Positions 1 to 42,460 of a stretch of DNA of 46,800 nucleotides are shown here, piece after piece (the stretch's first letter is position 1; each line of letters opens with the position of its first letter). Made by a program: the position numbers and the translations under genes. The DNA is taken from NCBI GenBank assembly GCA_016214055.1, contig JACRPE010000019.1:1-46800 (forward strand), in the 5' to 3' direction. Below the pieces are notes generated by a model. It searched no databases, was not told where the DNA came from, and saw only the letters and a list, made by a program, of their open reading frames with translations. This stretch comes from Candidatus Roizmanbacteria bacterium. GTDB taxonomy: Bacteria > Patescibacteriota > Microgenomatia > UBA1406 > GWC2-37-13.

Positions 1-117
1 ACGAATAGATTTCATAGTTGCACTATTGTACAGAGGGATGTTTTCAAACAGAGAGAAGATCTTTATGGAGTGATTTGCAATACCTTTTCCCATGAATAAA
101 ATACATCCCTAAAAGTC
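1..117. other. left edge, no confident gene
   Basis: Frame 1 on the plus strand is open from the window edge to a TAA at 97-99 (32 codons), so this could be the 3' tail of a gene that begins outside the window. The peptide matches no family I recognise. No terminator with a U-tract is visible between it and the convergent regulator gene that ends at 118. Confidence 0.25.
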
Positions 118-426
118 TCATATGTATCGTAACTTATTCATTACCCGCTTGTACCCGCCGCATCCATGATTGAGCCAATGCGCAACACGAGTGACCGTAG
201 TAGTGGAGGATCCGGTCTCTTTTGCTACTTTCAGATAAGAATATCCTTTGAGAAGGAGACGGACCATCTCTAAACGGTTTGCAAACTCCTCAATTTCGGC
301 GATAGTCAACAAGTCACGTAGAAAGTTTGCAACATCTTCCTTACTTTTGAGAGAAGCAAACGCCTCAACCAGCCTCTTTTCCTTTTCATTTCTGGGCTGA
401 AATGATTCGTTTTGATTATTCGTCAT
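118..426 (-). CDS. TrpR/YerC-family transcriptional repressor, probable histidine regulator
   Basis: A 102-residue, all-helical DNA-binding protein of the TrpR superfamily, YerC/YecD branch. The helix-turn-helix is near the C-terminus, around the stretch KVAKETGSSTTTVTRVAHWL. I start it at the ATG at 426, because a -10 box (TACACT, 433-438) sits exactly six bases upstream. An in-frame ATG at 447 would lie upstream of that -10 and gives a seven-residue longer form. The gene is divergent from the histidine operon, and the two -35 boxes are separated by one base. In Firmicutes, YerC-type proteins have been proposed as histidine-biosynthesis regulators, which fits this position. A perfect 11-bp palindrome (433-443) covers its own -10, suggesting autoregulation. 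That it binds histidine is inference. Confidence 0.85.
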   Translation of the reverse strand: MTNNQNESFQPRNEKEKRLVEAFASLKSKEDVANFLRDLLTIAEIEEFANRLEMVRLLLKGYSYLKVAKETGSSTTTVTRVAHWLNHGCGGYKRVMNKLRYI

Positions 427-432
427 AATTCC

Positions 433-460
433 AGTGTAACACTTCACGGGAACAAATCAA
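433..460 (-). promoter_or_regulatory. promoter of the TrpR-family gene with palindrome
   Basis: On the minus strand, TTGATT (455-460), a 16-base spacer and TACACT (433-438), then six bases to the ATG at 426. The -10 lies inside AGTGTAACACT (433-443), a perfect 5+1+5 palindrome that may be an operator. Confidence 0.6.
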
Positions 461-461
461 C

Positions 462-490
462 TTGACAATTACGTATTTGTGTGTTAATAT
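462..490 (+). promoter_or_regulatory. sigma70 promoter of the histidine operon
   Basis: TTGACA (462-467), exactly 17 bases, TAATAT (485-490). This is a near-consensus housekeeping promoter. The predicted start of transcription, 6-7 bases further, falls on the A of the leader-peptide ATG at 497. The inverted repeat TGTTA-N6-TAACA (482-497) covers the -10 and is a candidate repressor site. It shares the half-site GTGTTA with the palindrome at the divergent promoter. Confidence 0.8.
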
Positions 491-496
491 GATAAC

Positions 497-571
497 ATGA
501 AACAGAAAAGAGTATCTTCAAATTCCTTCCATCATAACCCGCATTTCTTGCGCGGGAAATTAATCATGTAA
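497..571 (+). CDS. histidine leader peptide (HisL-like)
   Basis: A 24-codon ORF starting at the predicted transcription start and ending at TAA 569-571. It contains FHHNPH: two adjacent His codons (530-535) and a third at 542-544, all CAT. The His-codon stretch leads straight into arm A (538-542) of the RNA hairpin that would release the antiterminator. Position, histidine content and overlap with alternative RNA structures match leader peptides of amino-acid operons such as hisL. It is too short to judge by homology. With no room for a Shine-Dalgarno sequence, translation would have to be leaderless. Confidence 0.65.
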   Translation: MKQKRVSSNSFHHNPHFLRGKLIM

Positions 572-617
572 CGATAATTACATTTCCTACCCACCCGCGC
601 ATGTTCGCGGGTTTTTT
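538..617 (+). promoter_or_regulatory. transcription attenuator of the his operon
   Basis: Four RNA arms are visible. Arm A (538-542, CCCGC) pairs with arm B (552-556, GCGGG). Arm B extended (549-556) pairs perfectly over 8 bp with arm C (594-601). Arm C (593-599) pairs over 7 bp with arm D (606-612), followed by a six-T tract (612-617). A ribosome stalled at the tandem His codons (530-535) would cover A, free B to pair with C, and prevent the terminator. A ribosome reaching the stop at 569 would cover B and allow the C:D terminator. This is the textbook attenuation layout; its operation here is inferred. Confidence 0.75.
593..617 (+). terminator. intrinsic terminator of the his leader
   Basis: A 7-bp GC-rich stem (593-599 with 606-612), a six-base loop, and T612-617. 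It lies 20 bases before hisG, so it can only be a conditional terminator. Confidence 0.8.
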
Positions 618-636
618 ATTTGTATAAAACATATCT

Positions 637-1515
637 ATGAAAAAACTAAACAATGAGAACTTAAAATTAGGAGTTCAAAAGAAAGGCCGCTTAACCGAAG
701 AGGCAATAGATTTTCTCCGTTCAGCTGGCCTCGGATTTGAAAGTTATGGTCAGAGATTATTCTCAACCTGCCGCAATTTTCCGTTGGAAATAATATATGT
801 ACGGGATGATGATATCCCGGATTATGTCGAATCCGGTGCGGTAGATTTAGGAATAGCAGGCTTAAACCTTATAAATGAGGTTCAACCTCGGGTTACTCGG
901 TTGCTTAATCTTGGATTTGGTTATTGTTCGCTGTGCCTTACCGCTCCTAAAGAATCAAATATCGTTTCACCTCGAGAATTTGAAGGAAAGACGATTGCAA
1001 CATCATATCCGAACTCGACAAAAGCTTTTTTTGAAAAAATAAATATCAAAGTTAAGATTATGAAGATAAGTGGCTCAGTTGAAATTACTCCCATATTGGG
1101 AATTGCTCAGGGAGTGGTTGATATTGTATCCACAGGGAGTACTCTCGCGTTAAATGACCTAAGAGTGGTTGAAAAATTATATAACTCTGAGGCAATACTT
1201 CTTGCAAATTCTAAGTCAATCGCCAATCCGAAGAAACAAAAGACAATTGATTCATTACTCATGCGATTAAAAGGTGTATTGGCCGCAAAAAACTATAAAT
1301 ATGTCATGATGAATGCTCCCCAAGCGATATTAGCGAAGATAAAAAAGACTACTCCTGGCTTAAAATCTCCTACCATATCTCCCCTAGCCACTCCGGGCTG
1401 GATTTCAATTCAGACAGTCATACAAGAGGATATATTCTGGGAAACCATCGAAAAATTAAAAGCGCTTGGCGCTTCCGATATTTTAGTATTACCCATTGAG
1501 AAATTAATAGTATGA
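637..1515 (+). CDS. hisG: ATP phosphoribosyltransferase, long form
   Basis: First enzyme of histidine synthesis: condenses ATP and PRPP to phosphoribosyl-ATP. At 292 residues it is the long (HisG-L) form. A two-lobed periplasmic-binding-protein-like catalytic domain (about 1-210) carries the PRPP loop DIVSTGSTL at 162-170. An ACT-like C-terminal regulatory domain (about 215-292) follows. The long form needs no HisZ partner, and none is seen here. The regulatory domain predicts feedback inhibition by histidine in addition to attenuation. No clear Shine-Dalgarno precedes the ATG. Its last four bases overlap hisD (ATGA). Confidence 0.95.
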   Translation: MKKLNNENLKLGVQKKGRLTEEAIDFLRSAGLGFESYGQRLFSTCRNFPLEIIYVRDDDIPDYVESGAVDLGIAGLNLINEVQPRVTRLLNLGFGYCSLCLTAPKESNIVSPREFEGKTIATSYPNSTKAFFEKINIKVKIMKISGSVEITPILGIAQGVVDIVSTGSTLALNDLRVVEKLYNSEAILLANSKSIANPKKQKTIDSLLMRLKGVLAAKNYKYVMMNAPQAILAKIKKTTPGLKSPTISPLATPGWISIQTVIQEDIFWETIEKLKALGASDILVLPIEKLIV

Positions 1516-2807
1516 AAGTAATAAAACTCACCGATCTTACAAAACAGGATTATAAAAGAATTGTGAACCGATCTGCCGGAAACAATGAAAAGATTTTGCC
1601 TGAAGTTAAGAAAATAATGCAAGATGTGCAGGCGAAAGGTGACGTGACTATTATGGCAAAATACCAATCACGATATGGGCGTGATAATTACCAATCAATC
1701 AAGGTTACAGATGAAGAAATAAGAAATGCATATCAAAACATTAATAAAGAAACAATCACTGCATTGAAGCAAATGATTAAAAATATAACCCTTGTCCAAA
1801 AGGCTCAATTGCCAACAAAAAAAGATGTAGTTGTCAGGTCAGAAAAAGGAATTAAGGTCTGGAGAGAATGGCGTCCCATAAGGAAAGTGGGGTTGTATAT
1901 TCCTGGAGGCAAAGCTATCTATCCATCATCAGTATTGATGAGTGCAATTCCTGCGCAGATTGCGGGGTGCTCAGAAATAATTATGTGCTCTCCACCTGGG
2001 GGCGATGGACAGATTCCTACGGCAACCCTTGTTGCGGCAGACGTGCTTGGCTTAAAAAATATATATAAAGTTGGTGGTGCTGAGGCGATTGCCGCTATGA
2101 CTTACGGCACAGAAACAGTTCCCAATGTCTATAAAATTTTTGGTGCCGGTAACTCTTATGTGACTGCCGCTAAGATGTTGGCTCTGGAAAGAATTAGCAT
2201 TGATATGCCCGCAGGACCCTCTGAAGTATTTATTATTGCTGATGAAACGGCAAATCCCAGATTTGTTGCCGCAGATTTGATCGCAGATGGAGAACACGGA
2301 GAAGATTCTGCTTGTGTTTTGCTTACCACATCAAAAAATATTGCTGAAAAAACTATAGTTGAAATTGAAAAACAGCTGATAGAACTTGAGACGCGAAATC
2401 GGGCAAGGGAATCGTTACGAAGATATGGACTATTTGCGGTGGCTGAGGACATAGATGAAATTGTGAAGTTTACTAATGAATATGCACCTGAACACTTGGA
2501 AATTATGACAAAAAATCCTGAGAGACTCGTCAAAAAGATCACCGATGCAGGGTCTGTCTTCTTAGGAAGTTGGACAACTAAATCGAGTGGAGATTATGCA
2601 ACGGGTGCAAATCACGTCTTACCAACCGGTGGTATGGCCAAGATGTATCCCCCTTTGGGTGTGGATTCCTTTGGCAAATGGATGCAGGTTCAAAAGTGTA
2701 CAAAAGTTGGGTTGAAAAATATAAGAAAAACGATTGAAACTATTGCATCAGTCGAAAAATTGCCGGCACACAAACAATCAGTATCTGTCCGATTTATTAA
2801 AAATTAA
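1512..2807 (+). CDS. hisD: histidinol dehydrogenase
   Basis: Oxidises histidinol to histidine in two NAD-dependent steps, the last of the pathway. The length of 431 residues is normal. Visible features are the EHG motif with zinc ligand H262, the catalytic pair E327-H328 (YAPEHLE), D361 in SSGDYATG, and H420 near the C-terminus. The position equivalent to zinc ligand Gln259 of the E. coli enzyme appears to be Asp (ADGEH), a conservative ligand change. The start ATG overlaps the hisG stop, so translation is probably coupled. Confidence 0.95.
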   Translation: MKVIKLTDLTKQDYKRIVNRSAGNNEKILPEVKKIMQDVQAKGDVTIMAKYQSRYGRDNYQSIKVTDEEIRNAYQNINKETITALKQMIKNITLVQKAQLPTKKDVVVRSEKGIKVWREWRPIRKVGLYIPGGKAIYPSSVLMSAIPAQIAGCSEIIMCSPPGGDGQIPTATLVAADVLGLKNIYKVGGAEAIAAMTYGTETVPNVYKIFGAGNSYVTAAKMLALERISIDMPAGPSEVFIIADETANPRFVAADLIADGEHGEDSACVLLTTSKNIAEKTIVEIEKQLIELETRNRARESLRRYGLFAVAEDIDEIVKFTNEYAPEHLEIMTKNPERLVKKITDAGSVFLGSWTTKSSGDYATGANHVLPTGGMAKMYPPLGVDSFGKWMQVQKCTKVGLKNIRKTIETIASVEKLPAHKQSVSVRFIKN

Positions 2808-2815
2808 TTTGACCT

Positions 2816-3904
2816 ATGAAAATGACCGATTTAAAACAATTTATCAGACAAGACTTAATAAAATTTGAAGAATATAAAGCGGTACCATCCGCATACGATA
2901 TTGCATTAGATAATAATCTAGCAATAAATGAGATTGATAAGCTTGATGCGAATGAGAATGTATTCGGACCCTCATCAAAACTCAATAGAGAGTTGGCGCG
3001 ATTCAAGGGCTATCAATACTATCCCGATCCTGAATACAAACGATTGAGACGAGCGATTGGAAATTATGTAAATGTTCCCGAAGATTATATTTTGGTCGGC
3101 TCGGGTGGGGATGAGCTTATTGATCTACTTCTGAGGCTTATCATTGAACCGGGTGATGAGGTGATAAACAGTCCTCCCACGTTTGGAAGTTACTCGACAT
3201 CAACCATATTAAACCGTGGAATACTCGTAGATGTTCCAAGGAAAAAAGGTTTTGGAATAAATACAAAAAAGGTATTGAGGTCAATAAACAGTAAAACAAA
3301 GCTTATTATCCTTTGCAATCCGAATAACCCCTCAGGAAATATAACAGACAAAAAAGATATCGAGCAAATTCTTAAAGCAGGAAGACTCGTATTGGTTGAT
3401 GAGGCCTATTTTGAATTCTCAAAGCAAACAACTCTACCTTTAATCAAGAAATATCCAAACCTTATTATCCTCCGCACTTTCAGCAAATGGGCAGGAATTG
3501 CCGGACTGAGATTGGGTTATTTGATTGCATCCCCCATTTTCATTAGGCAGTTAACAAAGATTAAGTCACCCTATAACATAAATGTTGCAGCTGAAATAGG
3601 TGGGATGATAGCGTTAGATGATATTAACTATCAACAAAGTATCATTGAGGAAATCATCAAGGAAAGAAAAAGATTATTGAGAAATTTATCTAGAAATATA
3701 AACTTATTAGTTTACCCGTCATTTGCCAACTTTATATTTCTACAGGTTAAAGACTTTGCTTTCCCTAAACTGAAATTATTATTTCAGAAAAATATAATAG
3801 CAGTTCGATCCTACGATTCTACTCTCACCGGAAAAGCATTTCGTATAACTATCGGCTCCCCCCAGCAAAATAAGAAGATATTAGAAATACTAGACAACAT
3901 ATGA
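2816..3904 (+). CDS. hisC: histidinol-phosphate aminotransferase
   Basis: A PLP enzyme converting imidazole-acetol phosphate to histidinol phosphate with glutamate as amino donor. At 362 residues it is a fold-type I aminotransferase of the HisC branch. Seen are the N-terminal DANEN-GPS substrate-binding segment, the glycine-rich GSGGDE phosphate loop near residue 97, CNPNNPSG near 168, DEAYFEF near 195, and the Schiff-base lysine K224 in TFSKWAGIAGLRLGY. It starts eight bases after hisD and ends in an ATGA overlap with the HAD gene. Confidence 0.93.
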   Translation: MKMTDLKQFIRQDLIKFEEYKAVPSAYDIALDNNLAINEIDKLDANENVFGPSSKLNRELARFKGYQYYPDPEYKRLRRAIGNYVNVPEDYILVGSGGDELIDLLLRLIIEPGDEVINSPPTFGSYSTSTILNRGILVDVPRKKGFGINTKKVLRSINSKTKLIILCNPNNPSGNITDKKDIEQILKAGRLVLVDEAYFEFSKQTTLPLIKKYPNLIILRTFSKWAGIAGLRLGYLIASPIFIRQLTKIKSPYNINVAAEIGGMIALDDINYQQSIIEEIIKERKRLLRNLSRNINLLVYPSFANFIFLQVKDFAFPKLKLLFQKNIIAVRSYDSTLTGKAFRITIGSPQQNKKILEILDNI

Positions 3905-4542
3905 GACGAACTTTTGATGGAATCATATTCGATATGGATGGGATACTCGTTAATGTGACAAGGTCATATCGGGAAGCGATGAGGATGACTGCGAGTAAAT
4001 TCCTTTGTCGTGAAGTCTCTAAAATCGAAGTTGATAATATAAAAAATAAAATAGGAATGAATAATGATTGGGATGCAACATACGCACTTATAAATAATTC
4101 TGCAATTCCTTATGCAAAAGTAAAGAAATATTTTCAAGAACTGTATTTAGGGAATAAAGAGAGAAAAGGGTTCATAGACAATGAACCATTACTTATTTCA
4201 AAACAAATATTAACCCGAATAATGAAGAAATACGGAAAGTTAGCAATTGCTACAGGCAGACCTAGGTTAGAAGCTGAATACGTAATTAAAAAGAATAAAT
4301 TAAATGGATTGTTCAATTCTATTGTTGCTATGGAAGATGTTGCAAGTGGTAAACCAGCGCCGGACATACTTATTAAAGTTATCAGTAAATTGAAATTAAA
4401 AAATACCGTTTACATTGGAGACAGTCCAAGTGATGTTATCTCTGCACAAAATGCAGGAATTCCATGCATATACGTTGGGACACAAAATATTGGTTCGATC
4501 ACGTGCTCCTCAATATTACAAGTTATCGAATATTTATTATGA
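3901..4542 (+). CDS. HAD phosphatase, probable histidinol-phosphatase
   Basis: A 213-residue haloacid-dehalogenase-superfamily phosphatase, subfamily IA, with an alpha-helical cap. Motif I is FDMDG (nucleophile D11, acid D13), motif II ATGRP, motif III the lysine in SGKPAPD, and motif IV GDSPSDV. It sits between hisC and hisB with 4-bp overlaps on both sides, exactly where the histidinol-phosphatase moiety of bifunctional hisB lies in enterobacteria. No DDDD-type HisB-N, PHP-type HisK or inositol-monophosphatase-type HisN is present in the window. Assignment as the missing phosphatase rests on this context and is strong inference, not proof. Confidence 0.8.
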   Translation: MRRTFDGIIFDMDGILVNVTRSYREAMRMTASKFLCREVSKIEVDNIKNKIGMNNDWDATYALINNSAIPYAKVKKYFQELYLGNKERKGFIDNEPLLISKQILTRIMKKYGKLAIATGRPRLEAEYVIKKNKLNGLFNSIVAMEDVASGKPAPDILIKVISKLKLKNTVYIGDSPSDVISAQNAGIPCIYVGTQNIGSITCSSILQVIEYLL

Positions 4543-5129
4543 AAAGATATTCAAAGATTGAAAGAAAAACAAATGAAACTCAGATAAATATTGCTCTAAA
4601 TATCGATGGAATAGGAAGAAGAACAATTAATACCCCTATTGGATTTCTTAATCACATGTTGGACCTTTTTACCAAGCACGGATTATTTGATCTAAACATT
4701 TCGGCTAAAGGAGATACTTTTATCGATGAACACCACACGGTTGAGGATATTGGCATCGTATTGGGTCAGGTGTTTCTTGAAGCCTTGGGAGATAAAAAAG
4801 GAATCAATCGATATGGATTTTTTATCTTGCCCATGGATGAGGCAGTGGCAACCGTTGCCATAGATTTTTCCGGTCGCTACGCATTTAAACTTGACTGCGA
4901 GTTTATCAGGGAAAAAGTGGGAGACCTCAGCACCGAACTCGTCTATGATTTTTGGGGTGCCTTTGCACAGAGTGCCAAGGTCAATTTATTTATAAAAGTC
5001 GAAAACGGAAGGAATGATCACCACAAAATTGAGGCGATTTTTAAGGCAACTGCCCGTGCAATTCGCGTGGCCTGTGAACTAGATAAAAGATCGTTACAAA
5101 ATATTCCGTCAACGAAAGGAGTCTTATGA
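4539..5129 (+). CDS. hisB: imidazoleglycerol-phosphate dehydratase
   Basis: Mn-dependent dehydration of imidazole-glycerol phosphate. It is 196 residues, monofunctional, when started at the ATG at 4539, which overlaps the upstream stop as ATGA. The reading frame is open further upstream (ATG at 4464), but that part would lie wholly inside the HAD gene and has no counterpart in the family. The internal duplication typical of the fold is visible as two metal-binding motifs, DEHHTVEDIG near residue 70 and DHHKIEAIFKA near residue 165. Confidence 0.95.
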   Translation: MKRYSKIERKTNETQINIALNIDGIGRRTINTPIGFLNHMLDLFTKHGLFDLNISAKGDTFIDEHHTVEDIGIVLGQVFLEALGDKKGINRYGFFILPMDEAVATVAIDFSGRYAFKLDCEFIREKVGDLSTELVYDFWGAFAQSAKVNLFIKVENGRNDHHKIEAIFKATARAIRVACELDKRSLQNIPSTKGVL

Positions 5130-5743
5130 TTATCATCATCGATTACGGTTTGGGAAATTTGGGAAGCGTGAAAAACGCCCTGGATAAACTGGGTATAGAA
5201 TCGATGGTCTCATCATCAATAAGTGACATTGAAAAGGCGGATGGTCTCATCATTCCCGGGGTCGGGTCAGCGTCTGAGGGTATGATAAATTTACAAGAAT
5301 CAGGATTGGGTAAAGTAATTCGAGAACAAATTGAGATGGAGAAACCGTTTTTAGGAATCTGCCTGGGAATGCAACTATTCTTTTCCTCAAGCGAAGAAGG
5401 CAATACAAAATGTCTCAATGTAATTGCGGGTAAAGTTAAAAAGTTTAGAACAGAACTAAAAGTTCCACAAATTGGATGGAATCAAGTGAAAAAAAAATCA
5501 TCAAGGTTATTTAGGGGAATAAAAAATAATAGTTACTTTTATTTTGTTCATTCCTATTTTTGTCAACCTAAAGAATCAGGATCGGAAATAGGAATAACTG
5601 ATTATGGAATAACTTTTTGTAGTGCGATTGAGAATGAGAATGTATTTGGCGTTCAATTCCACCCTGAAAAAAGCGGAGAGAATGGACTCAAATTATTAAG
5701 TAATTTCAAGGACATCGTCTATGCAAATAATACCGGCAATTGA
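5126..5743 (+). CDS. hisH: imidazole glycerol phosphate synthase, glutaminase subunit
   Basis: Class I glutamine amidotransferase supplying ammonia to HisF. It has 205 residues. Catalytic Cys79 lies in the nucleophile elbow GICLGMQLF, and His-x-Glu in GVQFHPEKSG near residue 178 completes the triad. It overlaps hisB by four bases and hisA by 23. HisA lies between the two subunits of the HisH-HisF synthase. Confidence 0.95.
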   Translation: MIIIIDYGLGNLGSVKNALDKLGIESMVSSSISDIEKADGLIIPGVGSASEGMINLQESGLGKVIREQIEMEKPFLGICLGMQLFFSSSEEGNTKCLNVIAGKVKKFRTELKVPQIGWNQVKKKSSRLFRGIKNNSYFYFVHSYFCQPKESGSEIGITDYGITFCSAIENENVFGVQFHPEKSGENGLKLLSNFKDIVYANNTGN

Positions 5744-6434
5744 TATAAAAGATGGAAACTGTGTGCGCCTTTTCCAAGGTGATTATACAAAAGAAACTAT
5801 CTATGCAGATAGTCCTGTTGCCATGGCTTTAAAATGGAAAAAACAAGGGGCTAAGATGCTCCACGTCATAGACTTGAGTGGTGCAAAAAAGGGAAGATCC
5901 ATGATCGGCAACGACCTTAAGCAAATAATAAAAAAGGTGACAATCCCAATTCAGGTCGGTGGAGGTATTCGAACTCCTGACTCAATTAATCAATTAATTA
6001 AGTCAGGTGTGGCAAAAGTTATATTGAGTACTTATGCAATAGAAAACATGATTTTGCTCAAAAAAATCGTAGATCTTTATGGTGATAAGATTGCTGTTTC
6101 ACTTGATGTACTTGACGGAAAGCTAATGAAAAATGGATGGTTAGAGCAAAGTGATATTACTTTAACTTCAACCATAAAAAAACTGGGAAAAATGGGAGTT
6201 GAAACCATTATTTATACTGATATCACCCGTGACGGAACTTTAACCGGTCCGAATTACAAAATAATAGAGAAAGTGAAAAAATGCACAAAAATGAGACTAA
6301 TTATTGCAGGTGGAGTATCGTCGATTGAACAAATAAATAAGTTAAAAATAATTGGGGTTGATGGGGTTATTATCGGGAAGGCATTATATGAAGAAAAAAT
6401 AATTCTAAAGGAGGTACTGAAATATGTTAGCTAA
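5721..6434 (+). CDS. hisA: ProFAR isomerase
   Basis: A (beta-alpha)8 barrel that performs the Amadori rearrangement of ProFAR to PRFAR. It has 237 residues. The catalytic aspartates are visible in IPAIDIKDG at the N-terminus and YTDITRDGT near residue 168. Phosphate-binding loops are QVGGGIR near 78 and AGGVSS near 194. It starts 23 bases inside hisH and overlaps hisF by 11 bases, after a strong Shine-Dalgarno-like AAAGGAGG just before hisF. Confidence 0.95.
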
Positions 6435-7188
6435 ACGTATCATCTCATGTCTTGATGTAAGAGATGGCCGAGTAGTGAAGGGGGTCAATTTTGTTAATTT
6501 ACGAGACGGCGGAGACCCGGTTGAAATGGGTAAATTTTACAATGACCAAGGGGCTGATGAGTTAGTTTTTTTGGATATTACCGCCTCAAGCGATAATAGG
6601 AAAATAATAATGAATGTTGTGGAGAAAGTGGCTAAACAGGTATTTATTCCTTTTACCGTCGGAGGAGGTATTCGAACCGTTGACGATATGAGGTCTACTC
6701 TTCTTGCCGGTGCTGATAAAGTAGCGATAAATACTGCGGCATTAACCAACCCTAACCTGATAAGTGAGTGTGCAAATATATTTGGGAATCAATGCGTTGT
6801 CCTTGCGATTGATGTAAAACAAAATAAAAATAAGTGGGAAGTATTTGTAAATGGCGGCAGGACGCCAACAGGAAAAAATGCACTTACATGGGCAAAACTG
6901 GCAATAAAACTCGGGGCAGGAGAAATACTTTTAACCAGTATGGACCAGGATGGTACTAAGCTCGGATATGATCTTGTTTTGACTAAACAAATATCTGAAG
7001 TGGTGAGTGTTCCCGTTATCGCATCAGGTGGGGCTGGAAATAAACAAGATTTTTATAACGTCTTTACACAAGGAAAAGCTGATGCCGCGCTTGCCGCGTC
7101 ACTATTCCATTTTGGAGAATTAAAAATAAAAGATTTGAAGAAATATTTATTAGATATGAAGTTACCAATTCGAATTTATAAATCATGA
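6424..7188 (+). CDS. hisF: imidazole glycerol phosphate synthase, cyclase subunit
   Basis: A (beta-alpha)8 barrel paralogous to HisA. It uses HisH-derived ammonia to form imidazole-glycerol phosphate and AICAR. It has 254 residues, with catalytic Asp in [14 protein letters not shown] and in [10 protein letters not shown] near residue 176, and phosphate loop VGGGIRT near 81. AAAGGAGG about eight bases before the ATG is one of the few good Shine-Dalgarno sequences in the operon. Its end overlaps hisI by four bases. Confidence 0.95.
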
Positions 7189-7481
7189 AAAATGAACTAA
7201 TCCCAACCATTATTCAGGATGTGAAAACTCTGGAGATCTATATGCTGGGTTACAGTAATCAAGAATCATTACAAAAAACTAAGACGACAGGAAATGTATG
7301 GTTTTACAGCCGTAGCAGGAGAAGGCTGTGGATGAAAGGAGAAAAGTCGGGTAATATATTAAAGGTTGAGGAGATATATTTTGATTGTGATCAGGACTCA
7401 ATCCTGATTAAAATTTCCCTGCAGGGTAATGCTGTATGTCACACAGGAAATAAATCATGTTTTTTTTATAAATTAAAATAA
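7185..7481 (+). CDS. hisI: phosphoribosyl-AMP cyclohydrolase
   Basis: A zinc enzyme that opens the adenine ring of PR-AMP. It has 98 residues and is a stand-alone form, not fused to HisE. Visible are the start of the motif [18 protein letters not shown], the Mg/Zn site DCDQDS, and the zinc cysteines in [12 protein letters not shown]. The protein is slightly short at its N-terminus relative to many homologues. Overlap with hisF is ATGA. Confidence 0.93.
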
Positions 7482-7484
7482 TAT

Positions 7485-7781
7485 ATGACTATAGATGAGC
7501 TGTACAAAATAATTAAGGATCGCAAACAAAAAATGCCTGAGGGATCTTATGTAGCTTCATTGTTTACTGAGGGAAAGGATCGCATAATCCAGAAGGTTGG
7601 GGAAGAGGCTGTCGAGGTGGTCATTGCAGGAAAAAACTCGGACCGTAACAGAATTATCGAGGAAAGCACTGACCTCATATTTCACTTATTAACGCTTCTT
7701 GTCAACGAAAGGATCACTCTTGGAAATATTTATGAAGAGCTCGAGAAAAGATCAAATGGGTTGTTGACAAAAAAGCAATGA
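7485..7781 (+). CDS. hisE: phosphoribosyl-ATP pyrophosphatase
   Basis: An all-alpha NTP pyrophosphohydrolase (MazG-like fold) converting PR-ATP to PR-AMP. It has 98 residues. Metal-binding acidic residues are visible in KVGEEAVEVVIAGK and EESTDLIFHLLTLL. It is the last gene of the histidine operon, three bases after hisI. The promoter of the next transcription unit lies inside its 3' end. Confidence 0.93.
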   Translation: MTIDELYKIIKDRKQKMPEGSYVASLFTEGKDRIIQKVGEEAVEVVIAGKNSDRNRIIEESTDLIFHLLTLLVNERITLGNIYEELEKRSNGLLTKKQ

Positions 7782-7792
7782 TTGCCTACAAT
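7764..7792 (+). promoter_or_regulatory. promoter of the sugar-gene unit, inside hisE
   Basis: TTGACA (7764-7769), exactly 17 bases, TACAAT (7787-7792), then eight bases to the ATG at 7801. The -35 is inside the hisE coding sequence. It separates the following genes from histidine control, although read-through is possible because no terminator is seen after hisE. Confidence 0.75.
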
Positions 7793-7800
7793 ATCAATAT

Positions 7801-8355
7801 ATGTCAAACGTACTGACTCTTGATGATGTTGATGAACAAATTCATTCCCAGGTATACAAACAGGACTATTCACCTGTGGCAATTATTGACGGCGTAAAAG
7901 TCGTTGACTTTAAACACTTTATAAGCGACGAGGGTGATTTTGCGGAAGTCGTGAGAATAGACGATAAGGGAGAACTTGTTCAAGTACCCGGTTTTAAGAT
8001 CGCACAAATCAATCGGACTCATATATTCCCCGGCTCAGTCAAGGCGTGGCATATGCACTTTAGTCAGGACGAAATTTGGTATGTCCCTCCTGCGTTTCAA
8101 CTTTTTGCCGGCCTGTGGGATGTGAGGAAAAATTCTTCCACCACCAAAAAAACAATGAGGATTAACCTGGGAGGTGGAAATTCAAGGTTGCTGTTTATTC
8201 CCCGGGGAGTTGCACACGGATCGATGAATCTCAGTAGTCAACCTGTTGAACTTTTCTATTTTGTGAACCAACAGTTTAATCCACAAGACCCTGATGAGAA
8301 GAGAATTCATTGGGATGCGGCAGGCAAGGAATTCTGGACTCCTGAACGGGATTAA
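7801..8355 (+). CDS. RmlC-like cupin, dTDP-sugar epimerase family
   Basis: A 184-residue cupin resembling dTDP-4-dehydrorhamnose 3,5-epimerase. Conserved-looking features are KAWHMHFSQDEIWYVP (catalytic-base-type His near residue 80), a LLFIPRGVAHG strand-turn near 140, and the C-terminal HWDAAGKEFW that resembles the I-x-W-D/N-P end of RmlC. It is followed three bases later by a DegT aminotransferase, a pairing common in pathways for amino- or deoxysugars. RmlA, RmlB and RmlD are not in the window, so the exact sugar cannot be named. It might instead be a sugar ketoisomerase of the FdtA/WxcM type. Confidence 0.7.
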   Translation: MSNVLTLDDVDEQIHSQVYKQDYSPVAIIDGVKVVDFKHFISDEGDFAEVVRIDDKGELVQVPGFKIAQINRTHIFPGSVKAWHMHFSQDEIWYVPPAFQLFAGLWDVRKNSSTTKKTMRINLGGGNSRLLFIPRGVAHGSMNLSSQPVELFYFVNQQFNPQDPDEKRIHWDAAGKEFWTPERD

Positions 8356-8358
8356 ACT

Positions 8359-9471
8359 ATGCAAGCTACCCAAAAAATTGTTTTTAATGAGGTTGGCTTA
8401 AGGGCACTTCAGCAAAAAGCAAGACTATTGTTGTGTTTTTCTTCAGTAATTGATACGGGACAATTTCTTCAGGGACCTGAGAATGACAAACTTAAAATGT
8501 CATTAAAAAAATATCTTAACGGTTTATATGTTCATCTCGTTTCCTCCGGTCATGATGCGCTTTTATTAAGCCTCATTTCACTCAACCTTATTAAAACTGA
8601 TGAGATTATCGTTCCTGCCAATGCGTATCCCACCTCTTTTCCTGTTTCATTATCAGGCGCCAGAATGGTCTTGTGCGATGTTGATGTAAACGGCCAAATG
8701 AGCTTTGAAAGTCTGAAGAAAATGATAACTCAAAATACAAAGGCCATCATTCTCGTTCATATGTATGGTCTGGTCGGAGATATTGAAAAAATAGTCGCAT
8801 TAGCAAAGGAAAAAAATATCATATTGATAGAAGATTGTGCGCAGGCATACGGCTCAAAGTTCAAGAATAAACACATTGGAACTTTGGGAGATATCGGATG
8901 TTTTTCCTTTTACCCGACAAAAAATTTAGGAACGCTAGGTGATGGCGGTGCCATTGTAACAAGTAATAAAGCCTATTCTGACCGTGTAGAAATGCTTAAA
9001 TCGTATGGGGAAAGGTCAAGATATGCCAGCCAGACTATAGCCGGCCATAGTAGACTTCCCGAAATACAAGCCGGGGCATTGAATATATATCTTGAAAGCC
9101 AGGAATCAAACGAAGAAAAAAGAAAACAGTTATTTTTGTATTATTTGAATAAGATCAAAAAGGCTGGGATATCAATTCGCACGTTTCTATCTCATCCAGA
9201 TTCTGATCCGGTTCCTCACTTATTCGTGATTGAAGTAAAAAAGAGAGACAATTTGCAAGCTTACCTGGCACAACATGGTATTGAAACCCATGTGCATTAT
9301 CCTCACCCCATTCATCTTGTGCCTGCGTTTCATAATCTTGGATATAAAGAGGGAGATTTTCCTCAAGCAGAGCATCTTTGCCGAAATTGCCTGAGCCTTC
9401 CCTTTTATTCGTTTATGACGGAAGATCAGGTTGACTATATTGTTTCTAAATTGCAGGCATTTTATGGTTAA
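8359..9471 (+). CDS. DegT/DnrJ/EryC1/StrS sugar aminotransferase
   Basis: A PLP-dependent aminotransferase acting on nucleotide-activated keto-sugars. It has 370 residues. Seen are the SSGHDALLLSL cofactor segment near residue 62, LIEDCAQAYGS near 156 (aspartate holding the pyridine nitrogen), and the Schiff-base lysine K188 in SFYPTKNLGTLGDGGA. With the upstream cupin it probably makes an amino-sugar nucleotide for the glycosyltransferases downstream. The last eight bases contain the start codon of the next gene. Confidence 0.88.
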   Translation: MQATQKIVFNEVGLRALQQKARLLLCFSSVIDTGQFLQGPENDKLKMSLKKYLNGLYVHLVSSGHDALLLSLISLNLIKTDEIIVPANAYPTSFPVSLSGARMVLCDVDVNGQMSFESLKKMITQNTKAIILVHMYGLVGDIEKIVALAKEKNIILIEDCAQAYGSKFKNKHIGTLGDIGCFSFYPTKNLGTLGDGGAIVTSNKAYSDRVEMLKSYGERSRYASQTIAGHSRLPEIQAGALNIYLESQESNEEKRKQLFLYYLNKIKKAGISIRTFLSHPDSDPVPHLFVIEVKKRDNLQAYLAQHGIETHVHYPHPIHLVPAFHNLGYKEGDFPQAEHLCRNCLSLPFYSFMTEDQVDYIVSKLQAFYG

Positions 9472-22767: not shown

Positions 22768-23775
22768 ATGAGTATGAGAAGCATACAGAGTCTTGATGAT
22801 ACGTTTGATAAAAAGAAATTTAATAATGTTGCACTTCATCCTCTTCAGGCATGGGAATGGGGGGAGGCACGAAAGAAGATGGGAATAAAGGTGGTGAGGT
22901 TGGGAGTGTTTGAAAAAGATACTCTTGTTGAAGTCTATCAAATGACCATCCATTCCGTTGGCCTGGGTTATAAAATAGGCTATATTCCCCGGTCAATATT
23001 TCCTTCCAAGGACGTGCTAAGCTTTCTATCTTCGTATGGACAAAAAAACAATCTAATATTTGTCAAAATCGAACCGTATGTTGAAGTGGATTTCAATTTT
23101 CAAAATTCAAATTTCAAATTAATTAAATCTCCTCATCCCCTCTTCCCACCTTGGACGCAAATGCTTGATCTCACCCAACCTGAAGATGATCTGTTAAAAA
23201 ATATGAAGCAAAAGACGAGATATAATGTGAAACTTGCGCAAAAAAAAGGTGTCGTGGTAAAAGAGATGTCAAGCCCGAAAGGTTTTGAGATATTTCAAAA
23301 ACTATACTTCGAGACGTGCCGCCGTCAGAAATATTTTGGTCATACGAAAGAGTATTACGAAATAGTTTGGAACAGTTTAAAAGACGGCATTGCCCATATT
23401 TTGATTGCTTTTTATGAGGATACTCCCCTTGCCTCATACGAGTTGTTTAAATTCAAAGATGTTTTTTATTATCCTTATGGCGGCACTTCAGAATCACACC
23501 GCAATCTTATGGCGGCAAATCTTCTCATGTGGGAGGCAATCCGTCTGGGAAAAAAACTCGGGGCTACTAAGTTTGATATGTGGGGATCTCTTGCGCCACA
23601 TTACGACGTGCAAAACCCATGGGCGGGCTTCACCCGTTTTAAAGAAGGATACGGCACCACATTTACCGAGTTTGTTCCCGGATTAGACCTTGTGGTTTCC
23701 TCTCCGCTTTACTCCGCTTATAATATTGTATATGGATTGAGAAATTTCTACCTGGGTCTCAGACAGGCAGTTTAG
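22768..23775 (+). CDS. FemAB-like aminoacyltransferase / peptidoglycan bridge protein
   Basis: A 335-residue protein of the FemAB/FemX type: two GNAT-like domains that move an amino acid from aminoacyl-tRNA to the peptidoglycan precursor. Supporting segments are the N-terminal HPLQAWEWGEARKKMG, KQKTRYNVKLAQKKGV near residue 150, YPYGGTSESHRNLMAANLLMWEAIRLGKKLGATKFDMWG near 250, and GFTRFKEGYG near 300. ATG 22768, two bases after the previous stop, gives the family N-terminus; an ATG at 22720 would add 16 residues within the upstream gene. The 3' end overlaps the convergent GNAT gene by 17 bases. Confidence 0.85.
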   Translation: MSMRSIQSLDDTFDKKKFNNVALHPLQAWEWGEARKKMGIKVVRLGVFEKDTLVEVYQMTIHSVGLGYKIGYIPRSIFPSKDVLSFLSSYGQKNNLIFVKIEPYVEVDFNFQNSNFKLIKSPHPLFPPWTQMLDLTQPEDDLLKNMKQKTRYNVKLAQKKGVVVKEMSSPKGFEIFQKLYFETCRRQKYFGHTKEYYEIVWNSLKDGIAHILIAFYEDTPLASYELFKFKDVFYYPYGGTSESHRNLMAANLLMWEAIRLGKKLGATKFDMWGSLAPHYDVQNPWAGFTRFKEGYGTTFTEFVPGLDLVVSSPLYSAYNIVYGLRNFYLGLRQAV

Positions 23776-24736
23776 TGTCATTATTTAATATTGAATTGAT
23801 AATTTGATATTCCCTGTCATCACTGCAGTAGACCGGTGATATGCCCGGTTTGATGACGTCCATTCTTGCGTGTATGACAGGTGGCGCTTCTCCTTTAAAG
23901 AATTTGACAAACCAGGATCCTTGTACCGGCATAATCCCTACAGGAATACATCCTGCTTTAATCAGTGCCTCTTGTTGAGAAACATCATTGATATCGATGA
24001 GCCCGATATGTTCATCAATCTTTATGCATTCTGCGGCATTATCAACAAGCCTATGATTAATGTTTAACTCAATGCCCGGATTTTTACCGGCAATTATTTC
24101 AGCTAATCTTTTAACCGCATAGGGAGCATTATTGGGTAAAGAAATTGACAGTTTTTTTCCCTTTTGCATAATAATTGAATCAACTTCTCCCCAATCATAT
24201 TGCTCCCCTCCACTTCCCTGTTCCTGATACAGATGGGGCGAAACGCCGATCACCGCAATCTGCATCCCGTTTGCCTCAGCCACTCTCCTTGCCGCTCCCG
24301 CCACACTCGTTCTGTTGTAGGACCTCCCCGTATATACATATTCAGCGCCAATCTGTATAGCCTGTTTTAAAGCGCCATCCATTGCCAGCTCCCCATAACC
24401 CTTACCCGGCTGATTGGTAAATACTCTCCCCCGTTCCCAAAGACCGAGTTTATTTCTGACTAACGCGGCATGAGCAACAATTTCTCCATTCTCGTCACGA
24501 ACAACCGACGAATACATGTCCCCTCTTGCAATCGCCAGACCCAGTTCGCCTTCCGGCATCCAACTCTGAGGTTTCCTCAATGCTAAGTAAGGATATATAC
24601 ATCCATTATTGTCTTTATCTGGCCACGCATATTTACAGCATGAAATGATTGCGTCAGCATCATGAGGAGACACAGGACTCCTTAAAATCTCATATATTTG
24701 CTGTTTAAAATCTAATTTTTCCATACATAAATTCAC
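23759..24736 (-). CDS. GNAT-like acetyltransferase domain protein of unknown substrate
   Basis: About 325 residues from GTG at 24736, or 321 from ATG at 24724. Residues 60-170 look like a GNAT fold: strand EIVAHAALVRN, then GRVFTNQPGKGYGELAMDGALKQAIQIGAEYVYTG, where the Q/P-x-K-G-x-G segment would bind acyl-CoA. The C-terminal 150 residues match nothing I recognise. It is preceded by a 200-nt leader with two hairpin terminators and three small ORFs, unusual investment for one gene. The 3' arm of the nearer terminator supplies the only Shine-Dalgarno-like sequence. Confidence 0.6.
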   Translation of the reverse strand: MNLCMEKLDFKQQIYEILRSPVSPHDADAIISCCKYAWPDKDNNGCIYPYLALRKPQSWMPEGELGLAIARGDMYSSVVRDENGEIVAHAALVRNKLGLWERGRVFTNQPGKGYGELAMDGALKQAIQIGAEYVYTGRSYNRTSVAGAARRVAEANGMQIAVIGVSPHLYQEQGSGGEQYDWGEVDSIIMQKGKKLSISLPNNAPYAVKRLAEIIAGKNPGIELNINHRLVDNAAECIKIDEHIGLIDINDVSQQEALIKAGCIPVGIMPVQGSWFVKFFKGEAPPVIHARMDVIKPGISPVYCSDDREYQIINSILNNDTKLPV

Positions 24737-24843: not shown

Positions 24844-24881
24844 ATAAAAAAAACCTCCTTGCGGAGGTGTATGTCTATCAT
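24795..24881 (-). CDS. possible small leader ORF with Thr run
   Basis: A 28-codon ORF from ATG 24881 with GGAGGG eight bases upstream. It contains EVFF and a run of five Thr codons (KTTTTTPAHW). It runs through terminator T2 and overlaps the TTG ORF in another frame; at most one of the two is likely to be used. Confidence 0.3.
   Translation of the reverse strand: MIDIHLRKEVFFICVKTTTTTPAHWEDL
24846..24868 (-). terminator. intrinsic terminator T2 downstream of lon
   Basis: Minus-strand stem ACCTCC (24868-24863), loop GCAA, GGAGGT (24858-24853), then a seven-T tract (24852-24846). It may end the lon transcript, or act as the first of two conditional terminators in the GNAT leader. Confidence 0.75.
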
Positions 24882-24897
24882 AATAAATACCCTCCGC

Positions 24898-24948
24898 CTA
24901 AAACGGAGTCGTGGTTAAAAATCTATAAAAAATGTTGCTCTTTTCCAT
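24898..24948 (-). CDS. possible leader peptide with Phe/Tyr codons
   Basis: A 16-codon ORF from ATG 24948 containing NIFYRFL. It begins within about three bases of the transcription start predicted from the promoter at 24958-24985. Its stop codon falls in the hairpin CTCCG/CGGAG (24892-24908). Confidence 0.3.
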   Translation of the reverse strand: MEKSNIFYRFLTTTPF

Positions 24949-40449: not shown

Positions 40450-40690
40450 GCTCAGATTGAAGATTTATAAAGAAGAGCGTGTGGGCCTCCGAATCGGAGG
40501 CTTACGAGGAGAGGGCCCTCCGAATCGGAGGGAATCGGAAACAATTCACCAAAATTGTATATCTACGGAAACCCTCAAGGCACAGCTGTTGTCTTGAATA
40601 TGTTTTTTAAACCCCTGCAGTAATGCGGGACCAAAGAAAACATAAAACAGTTCTTCATCCCGAGCTCCATTATTATTTTTATACATATTT
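40450..40690 (+). promoter_or_regulatory. structured 5' leader of glmS, class unknown
   Basis: Contains two nearly identical palindromes, GCCTCCGAATCGGAGGC (40485-40501) and CCCTCCGAATCGGAGGG (40516-40532), then GAATCGGA again, a weaker AAGGCA/TTGTCTT hairpin (about 40578-40596), and a CCC..GCA/TGC.GGG hairpin near 40612-40631. It does not show the conserved core of the glmS ribozyme, nor of RNase P, tmRNA, SRP RNA or a T-box. It may be a riboswitch-like leader or a separate small RNA. A possible secondary -10 (TATACA) lies near the ATG. Confidence 0.45.
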
Positions 40691-42460
40691 ATGTGCGGTA
40701 TATTTGCTGTCGTCAATGATAAACATAATTCAAGTGCCCAAACGGTGCTTGAAGGATTGAAAAAACTTGAGTATAGAGGTTATGATTCATGGGGTATTGC
40801 TATGAAACCAAAAGGGGGACAAGTACTTCAGGTTGAGAAACATATTGGGAAAATCGGGCAGGCTTCAACCTCATTACCCGCAGGCTCAATAGCTATTGGT
40901 CACACCCGCTGGGCAACTCATGGAGGAGTGACCGATACCAACGCTCACCCTCACTTAGACTGTACAAAACAAATCGCCGTCTTACATAATGGTATCGTCG
41001 AAAATTATCAGGAATTGAAAGCAAAACTGTTGACCCAAGGTCATGTTTTTATATCAGAAACTGATACGGAAGTGATTGCTCATCTTATCGAGGAGAAGCA
41101 AAAAACTGCAAAAATTGAGACTGCAGTATTTGAAACTTTTAAAGAACTCGCGGGTTCAAATGCCATTGCGGTGTTGGACAGTAAGACGGAGTCGGTCATC
41201 GCATGCCGCAACGGCTCCCCGCTTGTGGTGGGAATGGGAAAAGATGATTATTATCTTGCGTCGGACGTACCTGCTTTTTTGAAATTTACCAATGCTGTTC
41301 ACTTTTTACTTGACGGGGAGGCGGTAATATTGACGAAGACAGGTGTGTCTCTGCATGATGTTGAAACGCATGAGAAAAAAAATCTGGTCACCCAACATCT
41401 TGACTGGAAGGTGGAGGATGCGGAAAAGGGGGGATTCCCCCACTTCCTTCTGAAGGAAATTATGGAGCAAAAGAAAACCATCCCTAAAACGTCACAAATT
41501 AATGGAGAAGAATTGAAAAAAGTTGCGGATAAAATAAAAATACATAAAAAAGTTGTCATGGTGGCATGTGGTACCGCTTTTTACTGTGCACTCGCCGCAA
41601 AGTATTTTTTTGCACAATCTGGCGTACAAGCTCAAACTTATCCTGCGTATGAATTTTTACCCTTTGCAAAGTTTTGTGATAAAGATACGGTGTTTATCGC
41701 CATATCTCAAAGCGGTGAGACGGCAGACACGTTGATCGCCGCACGAAACGCAAAGAAGGCAGGAGCCTATGTGGTTGCAGTGATTAATGCTCGAGGTTCA
41801 ACTCTTGAACGATTAGCCGATTCCACATTACTCGTGGGAGCAGGACCGGAAATAGCTGTCGTCTCGACAAAGGCTTTCACTTCACAGCTTGCAACGTTAT
41901 ATTTACTTGCCCATGATGTTGGCGGAAATATAGTAACTGCACAAAAAAATCTGAAGCATTTGGGACAAGTACTTGAGGGATGGTTAAATCAAACATTATT
42001 GGATAAGGTAATTGCTCTTGCCAAAAATATATTGAGCCATGAAGATATGTACTTAATCGGCAAGCATTTAAATTATCCGAGTACATTGGAGTTTGCGCTC
42101 AAAATAAAAGAGGCAAGCTATATCCATGCCGAGCCATTTGCGGCAGGTGAGCTCAAGCATGGGGTTATCTCACTCATTCAAAAAGGAACGATTTGCTTTG
42201 TGCTTGCGGGGAATGATGAAGTAAAGAACGAGGTCCTTTCAAGCGCGGCTGAGTTGAGAGCTCGAGGCGGATACATAATCGGTATCGCGCCATTTCAGGC
42301 AACCGAGTTTGATACAACCATACAAACACCGGATGTAGGAGACTTGACGCTTTTTCCAAACGTAATAGTCGGTCAATTGTTGGGATATTTTCTTGGGGTC
42401 GGTCGGGGGACAGATCCCGATAAACCCAGAAATCTCGCCAAAAGCGTGACGGTAAAGTAA
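40691..42460 (+). CDS. glmS: glucosamine-6-phosphate synthase
   Basis: Makes glucosamine-6-phosphate from fructose-6-phosphate and glutamine, the entry to peptidoglycan and amino-sugar synthesis. 589 residues. The N-terminal class II glutaminase begins MCGIFAVVN with Cys2 as nucleophile; GHTRWATHG near 77 and HNGIVENY near 104 follow. Two SIS isomerase domains have ACGTAFYCALAAKYFF near 293 and SQSGETADT near 340, and the C-terminus AKSVTVK is standard. It supplies the polysaccharide cluster and cell wall. Confidence 0.96.
   Translation: MCGIFAVVNDKHNSSAQTVLEGLKKLEYRGYDSWGIAMKPKGGQVLQVEKHIGKIGQASTSLPAGSIAIGHTRWATHGGVTDTNAHPHLDCTKQIAVLHNGIVENYQELKAKLLTQGHVFISETDTEVIAHLIEEKQKTAKIETAVFETFKELAGSNAIAVLDSKTESVIACRNGSPLVVGMGKDDYYLASDVPAFLKFTNAVHFLLDGEAVILTKTGVSLHDVETHEKKNLVTQHLDWKVEDAEKGGFPHFLLKEIMEQKKTIPKTSQINGEELKKVADKIKIHKKVVMVACGTAFYCALAAKYFFAQSGVQAQTYPAYEFLPFAKFCDKDTVFIAISQSGETADTLIAARNAKKAGAYVVAVINARGSTLERLADSTLLVGAGPEIAVVSTKAFTSQLATLYLLAHDVGGNIVTAQKNLKHLGQVLEGWLNQTLLDKVIALAKNILSHEDMYLIGKHLNYPSTLEFALKIKEASYIHAEPFAAGELKHGVISLIQKGTICFVLAGNDEVKNEVLSSAAELRARGGYIIGIAPFQATEFDTTIQTPDVGDLTLFPNVIVGQLLGYFLGVGRGTDPDKPRNLAKSVTVK

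Follow-up and report, generated by a model that had tools for sequence, protein, structure and literature searches.

The his locus and its leader

The DNA analyzed here, termed 'the window', is a stretch of 46,800 nucleotides from Candidatus Roizmanbacteria bacterium (GenBank assembly GCA_016214055.1, contig JACRPE010000019.1, positions 1 to 46,800, forward strand). The window is an entire contig (C17), and its bases 1–141 also form the beginning of contig C1, another contig of this genome, a repetition that is probably an assembly-graph overlap. The window contains a complete his operon of ten genes, hisG to hisE, and, divergent from it, hisR, a gene for a TrpR-family regulator (Table 1). A HAD phosphatase gene (3901–4542) sits between hisC and hisB and may encode the histidinol-phosphate phosphatase that is otherwise missing. 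Elsewhere in the window, a glmS ribozyme (40465–40654; 53.9 bits, Rfam RF00234) lies upstream of a glmS-like gene at 40691.

The DNA between hisR and hisG contains a promoter with a −35 element TTGACA at 462–467, a 17-nt spacer, and an extended −10 element, TGTTAATAT, that ends at 490, 6 nt before the ATG of a short open reading frame (ORF) with tandem His codons. This promoter position puts +1 at about 497, and the hisG leader peptide therefore is predicted to be leaderless. The ORF is overlapped and followed by four arms, A to D, that can form three helices: A:B (538–542/552–556; 5 bp, −8.6 kcal/mol), B:C (549–556/594–601; 8 bp, of which 7 are G-C), and C:D, which is followed by a U-tract and is the first-listed terminator-like site of window positions 1–8500. 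The full leader RNA has a better fold than 200 of 200 dinucleotide shuffles (z −4.0). An earlier note, made from the letters of the sequence, had described the ORF, the His codons, and the three helices, and had proposed a leaderless start. All of its coordinates proved exact on re-check, and the leaderless start is borne out as a prediction. The note had also named a transcription start downstream of 571 as an observation that would speak against it; we find a conserved promoter upstream of the ORF and nothing pointing to a later start.

Table 1. Coordinates of the his leader, the his operon, and attenuator-like leaders of the same genome (window positions unless a contig is named; each leader peptide is followed by a stop codon)
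Feature	Position	Strand	Basis or remark
hisR, TrpR-family YerC/YecD-type regulator, divergent from his operon	118..447	-	likely start ATG at 426
Sigma-70-type promoter TTGACA-17-TAATAT, extended -10 (TGT)	462..490	+	sequence; kept in relatives
Putative HisR operator, perfect palindrome TGTTAATATGATAACA	482..497	.	over -10 and A of start codon
hisG leader peptide ORF MKQKRVSSNSFHHNPHFLRGKLIM	497..571	+	predicted leaderless; frame and HH kept in 10/10 homologous leaders
Tandem, putatively regulatory His codons CAT CAT	530..535	+	kept in all ten hisG leaders, 0-2 nt 5' of arm A
Third His codon CAT	542..544	+	probably not regulatory; missing from relatives
Arm A (CCCGC)	538..542	+	partner 552-556; A:B covariation
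Arm B (UGCGCGGG), antiterminator 5' arm	549..556	+	8-bp B:C; covariation
Arm C (CCCGCGCA)	594..601	+	common to antiterminator and terminator
C:D predicted intrinsic terminator and U-tract	593..618 (stem 593-612)	+	-12.2 kcal/mol, z -3.2
Complete his operon: hisG, hisD, hisC, HAD phosphatase, hisB, hisH, hisA, hisF, hisI, hisE	637..7781	+	
Attenuator-like Thr leader (TTT) MEKSNIFYRFLTTTPF	24853-24948	-	A:B, B:C, terminator; before gene 23759-24736
Attenuator-like Thr leader (TTTT) MNKYILINTTTTFSC	L163, own-genome contig C20	-	directly before thrS (NCBIfam model)
Attenuator-like Tyr leader (YYY) MKNVVSAKYYYLQP	L171, own-genome contig C1	-	before two-gene unit ending in tyrS (NCBIfam)

Conservation of hisG leaders and covariation across related leaders

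The HisG protein of the window is nearest to HisG of Candidatus Roizmanbacteria and other Microgenomatia, and few genomes of the order have hisG (12 of 83). The alignment of hisG upstream regions that the earlier note had called for comprises the window and nine relatives with readable upstream DNA (n = 10). The results show that, in all ten leaders, an in-frame HH ends 0–2 nt before arm A, and A:B, B:C, and C:D all form. The leader peptides of the relatives (for example, MIENKVSNFEVNHHYPASAG, MLIIIQKQYEVNHHRLAPAG, and MSQQSLNTTVSIHHLLASAG) vary except for HH and, mostly, a short tail such as A.AG before the stop. In 7/10 leaders, the last base of B is also the first base of the stop codon, which lies 12–13 nt further on in the window, L010, and L011; the AUG lies 6–7 nt past the −10 element in 7/10 leaders, with short 5' leaders in L002, L010, and L011. 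The third His codon of the window, which the note had listed with the tandem pair, is present as claimed but is not conserved in the relatives; since it is missing elsewhere, and since a ribosome stalled there would, given the footprint size, cover B, this codon should not promote readthrough.

To assess covariation, a covariance model, R1, was built from seven leaders and used to find many more. The resulting alignment has 40 matches, comprising 37 believable leaders, in which his leaders are mixed with other leaders, and three stray rows. For A:B and C:D together, two-sided changes are observed at 7 of 14 pairs, with 38 two-sided cells versus 8.2 in shuffled alignments (0/500 shuffles as high) and with far lower values for slid controls; the alignment was fitted to these two helices, and related rows in it are non-independent. 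For B:C, which lies outside the covariance model, 21 two-sided cells are observed versus 10.4 in shuffled alignments (0/500 as high). The seven close relatives alone give no information on covariation of A:B and C:D and only a weak signal for B:C; with 40 leaders, covariation is clear. In addition, arm B of the window pairs better with its own arm C than with the C arm of every other leader compared. We conclude that the covariation that the note had looked for in the arms is present across the 40 related leaders, and that pairing, folding, and covariation all support a mutually exclusive antiterminator and intrinsic terminator.

Two of the relatives have a tRNA gene with anticodon loop GTG (His) between the attenuator and hisG (L002, 1394–1467; L011, 1284–1357), and a sensor of charged tRNA-His therefore may control that tRNA's own gene. 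Similar structured-looking stretches, with no Rfam match at gathering, lie between the attenuator and hisG at L003 (about 1376–1495) and L011 (about 1172–1280); they read ATGTAGCTGTTTC... and CCCCG..CCTCGGAGGC..GACGAGGTAAG..GGGG.

Proposed attenuation, probable HisR repression, and alternatives

We propose, with a probability of about 0.9, that a ribosome-mediated transcription attenuator having a four-arm, trp-like layout controls the his operon. According to this proposal, transcription starts at or next to the leader AUG; when His-tRNA is scarce, the ribosome would wait at His codons 530–535, covering arm A, so that, as C emerges, B:C would pre-empt the terminator and polymerase would read into hisG; and when His-tRNA is plentiful, the ribosome would reach the stop codon, over or next to B, so that C:D would form and transcription would end at about 617. 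From the ORF, codons, pairing, conservation, covariation, and operator conservation, all of which are features of the sequence, we infer translation, stalling, termination, HisR binding, and the HisR ligand.

To model the stalled state, we placed the second His codon in the A site and assumed that the ribosome reaches about 15 nt beyond the P-site codon on its 3' side. With this footprint, a ribosome stalled at HH covers A and leaves B free in 10/10 leaders, and, at the point where C has emerged while the ribosome occupies HH, the minimum-energy fold holds every B:C pair in 10/10. For the window, with the ribosome stalled, the energies of B:C and C:D almost coincide (−18.4 versus −18.9), and timing therefore must decide between them. 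With no ribosome, the equilibrium fold is B:C plus A:D, not A:B plus C:D, in 9/10 sequences, including the window, and the off state therefore would rely on a ribosome at B or on A:B forming first. A side helix, 554–560/582–588, competes with arm B in the window. Points against attenuation are that A:B has only 5 bp in the window and that only two His codons are conserved, a smaller number than other his leaders are known to have.

The divergent gene hisR encodes a protein with matches to Pfam Trp_repressor (E 3e-20) and NCBIfam TIGR02531 yecD_yerC (69.8 bits; cut-off 42.2), and a hisR orthologue is present near nearly all his-type leader loci examined. The TrpR-family protein YerC/HisR has been shown to be a histidine-responsive repressor in Firmicutes (PMC9413887). 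The perfect palindrome TGTTAN6TAACA, the core of the putative operator at the his promoter, occurs in a single copy in the 1.2-Mb genome; matches with one mismatch number 55, versus 88 for a control pattern, and are thus no commoner than the control, so that the information lies in the perfect site alone. Where hisR adjoins an HH leader, the putative operator is present near the promoter with 0–1 mismatches, whereas leaders without adjacent hisR (before hisS, pheS, leuA, and others) as a rule have 2–4 mismatches, with the exception of L119, where no hisR is adjacent but a perfect match lies 85 nt upstream of the leader. The divergent hisR and the palindrome over the −10 element and start codon suggest that the his operon is probably under dual control, by HisR repression and by attenuation. 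At high histidine, HisR probably represses initiation through the palindrome.

The presence of hisR and of a conserved operator over the −10 element would also be expected if HisR repression alone regulated the his operon, with the ORF arising by chance and the hairpins being a plain intrinsic terminator, which could have other uses. We consider this explanation improbable, because an in-frame HH precedes A at a fixed distance in 10/10 leaders, because B:C is conserved and covaries, and because the same device occurs with other cognate codons at loci that have neither hisR nor the operator (hisS, thrS, and pheS). Slightly less probable still is an action of the leader peptide through sequence-specific nascent-chain arrest, or an action in trans of the leader RNA or peptide after release, as has been reported for S. 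meliloti trpL: leaderless attenuator RNA with functions in trans provides a precedent (PMC7298713), but, HH excepted, the peptide shows no conservation of residues upstream of A, and a role in trans would add to attenuation, not replace it. Other Microgenomatia have T-box-like leaders at the same place, but we consider it very improbable that a T-box or other riboswitch directly senses tRNA-His or histidine here, since the 121-nt window leader has no recognizable T-box sequence and has no match to Rfam RF00230 (T-box) or to any riboswitch family at gathering or even at E up to 10. We therefore retain ribosome-mediated attenuation, combined with HisR, as the preferred reading.

Predicted attenuators elsewhere and comparison with known systems

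R1 fails to recover the window's own element, because the A:B loop there is longer and the stop lies 13 nt past B. To determine how often such elements are expected by chance, we therefore used a plain structural descriptor (ATG ORF, A:B, B:C of at least 6 bp, C:D, and U-tract) on both strands of the whole 1.2-Mb genome. The results show four sites in the genome, whereas 24 dinucleotide-shuffled genomes have 0.5 sites on average (and at most 2) and the reversed genome has none; these counts are lower bounds, since the descriptor overlooks some true relatives (for example, L002 and L015). The his leader is one of the four sites, and all four have a single-residue run just before A. Attenuator-like leaders with Thr and Tyr codons in the same genome are listed in Table 1; the gene behind the TTT leader encodes a 325-aa protein with no Pfam match. 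For CPR genes of this kind, leader codons could serve as labels that predict the governing amino acid.

Leaders with the same layout also precede other genes in relatives. HHH or HH leaders precede hisS (L119, L127, L133, L134, and L136), Phe codons precede pheS (L131), Phe/Tyr codons precede transaldolase and DAHP synthase (L129 and L222), Leu codons precede leuA (L141), Ile/Val/Leu codons precede an ilvE-like gene (L216), and Thr codons precede thrS; the names thrS, hisS, and tyrS are from NCBIfam searches, and the others were read by eye. In 30 thrS upstream regions, a leader plus terminator has TTT in seven and other triple residues in none. Of 30 hisS loci of the order, only a minority have an HH leader upstream, and none was seen upstream of the own genome's hisS. 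Among the loci read, a Tyr leader near tyrS occurs only in the own genome and a same-genus relative. At the tyrS locus of a same-genus genome (L294), two Tyr leaders stand in tandem, MKTHFSSTYYYFQL and MKNKSKLARQVSYYYYQLLYRRVIM, each of which has a separate terminator. The combination of hisR, operator, and HH leader also occurs before operons with a non-his first gene (L106, L108, L110, L111, L112, L114, L115, L118, L126, L128, and L138; L116 with HQ), and the first genes behind these leaders include those for an aromatic amino acid lyase, a nucleoside hydrolase, a PLP (PALP) enzyme, and several proteins without Pfam match. Across the phylum, an R1 match with E up to 1e-3 occurs in just 2 of 380 genomes, which indicates that the R1 sequence type, as distinct from other sequence types, which would escape R1, is concentrated in Microgenomatia.

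Taken together, we favor the view, with some reserve, that Microgenomatia (Patescibacteria) use ribosome-mediated attenuation as a major mode of regulation, often with leaderless ORFs, for His, Thr, Tyr, Phe, Leu, and Ile/Val genes, and that a portable cassette of hisR and HH attenuator occupies, at the his operon, the place of the T-boxes of other Microgenomatia and is also present before operons of unknown function. The earlier note had regarded attenuation in a reduced CPR genome as unexpected; it is not a lone surprise, in that the same genome and its order apparently use attenuation for several amino acids. Regulation in CPR/Patescibacteria is little explored because these bacteria are mostly uncultured and reduced, and in the literature searched, with preprints and most subscription journals outside its coverage, we found no report of attenuation in Patescibacteria. 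What the sequences suggest is thus apparently a known mechanism in a lineage without earlier report in that literature, combined with HisR and widespread in the order. Leader-peptide attenuators need a ribosome close behind polymerase, and conserved, covarying attenuators therefore indicate coupled transcription and translation here; if attenuation is a major mode in Microgenomatia, close coupling in CPR cells is implied.

The enterobacterial his leader, hisL (Rfam RF00514), like the leader here, has His codons in a short ORF and, before the his operon, an antiterminator and a terminator that exclude each other. However, hisL has a run of seven His codons, whereas the leader here has two conserved His codons, four arms, a predicted leaderless start, and a putative HisR operator joined to it, and the window leader has no match to RF00514 at gathering or at E up to 10 (the only Rfam matches are sub-threshold and to unrelated RNAs). 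The comparison with hisL made in the earlier note thus holds for the mechanism, which is supported, but not for the layout, which is of the four-arm, trp-like kind and not of the longer enterobacterial hisL kind. The trp leader of E. coli has the arm logic 1:2, 2:3, 3:4 and two tandem regulatory codons, with TrpR acting at the same promoter. The leader here shares the arm logic, the two tandem codons, and a TrpR-family repressor gene product predicted to act at the same promoter, and differs in amino acid, in lineage, in leaderless start, and, in most relatives, in having the stop codon at the end of B.

Leaderless attenuators, in which, as predicted here, the leader ORF starts at the RNA 5' end, have been described for S. 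meliloti trpL (PMC7298713) and for Streptomyces lividans leuL, trpL, and ilvL (PMC8079986), in other phyla and with other amino acids and sequences. In Firmicutes, his attenuators with His-rich leader peptides (3–5 His codons in a row) have been predicted, having been sought where HisR and T-box regulation are absent, and TrpR-family HisR has 20-bp palindromes (PMC9413887). The Firmicutes systems resemble the system here in having a His-containing leader before the his operon and a TrpR-family HisR with a palindrome; they differ in that, here, HisR and attenuator would share one promoter, in that there are fewer His codons here, and in that the published HisR consensus is cacTTTAn6TAAAgtg, versus an operator core of TGTTAN6TAACA here.

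T-box-like leaders were identified by eye upstream of hisG in other Microgenomatia (L013, L014, L016–L026, L028, L031, L032, and L034), often with a second terminator-like hairpin and a GTG-anticodon tRNA gene before hisG. The leader at L014 scores 28.8 bits to RF00230 (E 9e-5), far below the gathering score of 93, and T-boxes of this class therefore may escape standard annotation. These leaders occupy the same genomic place as the window leader and, like the attenuator proposed here, would sense tRNA charging, but they are a different RNA; the use of an HH attenuator with HisR at a place that T-boxes occupy in relatives of the same class would clearly exemplify the replacement of one tRNA-charging sensor by another.
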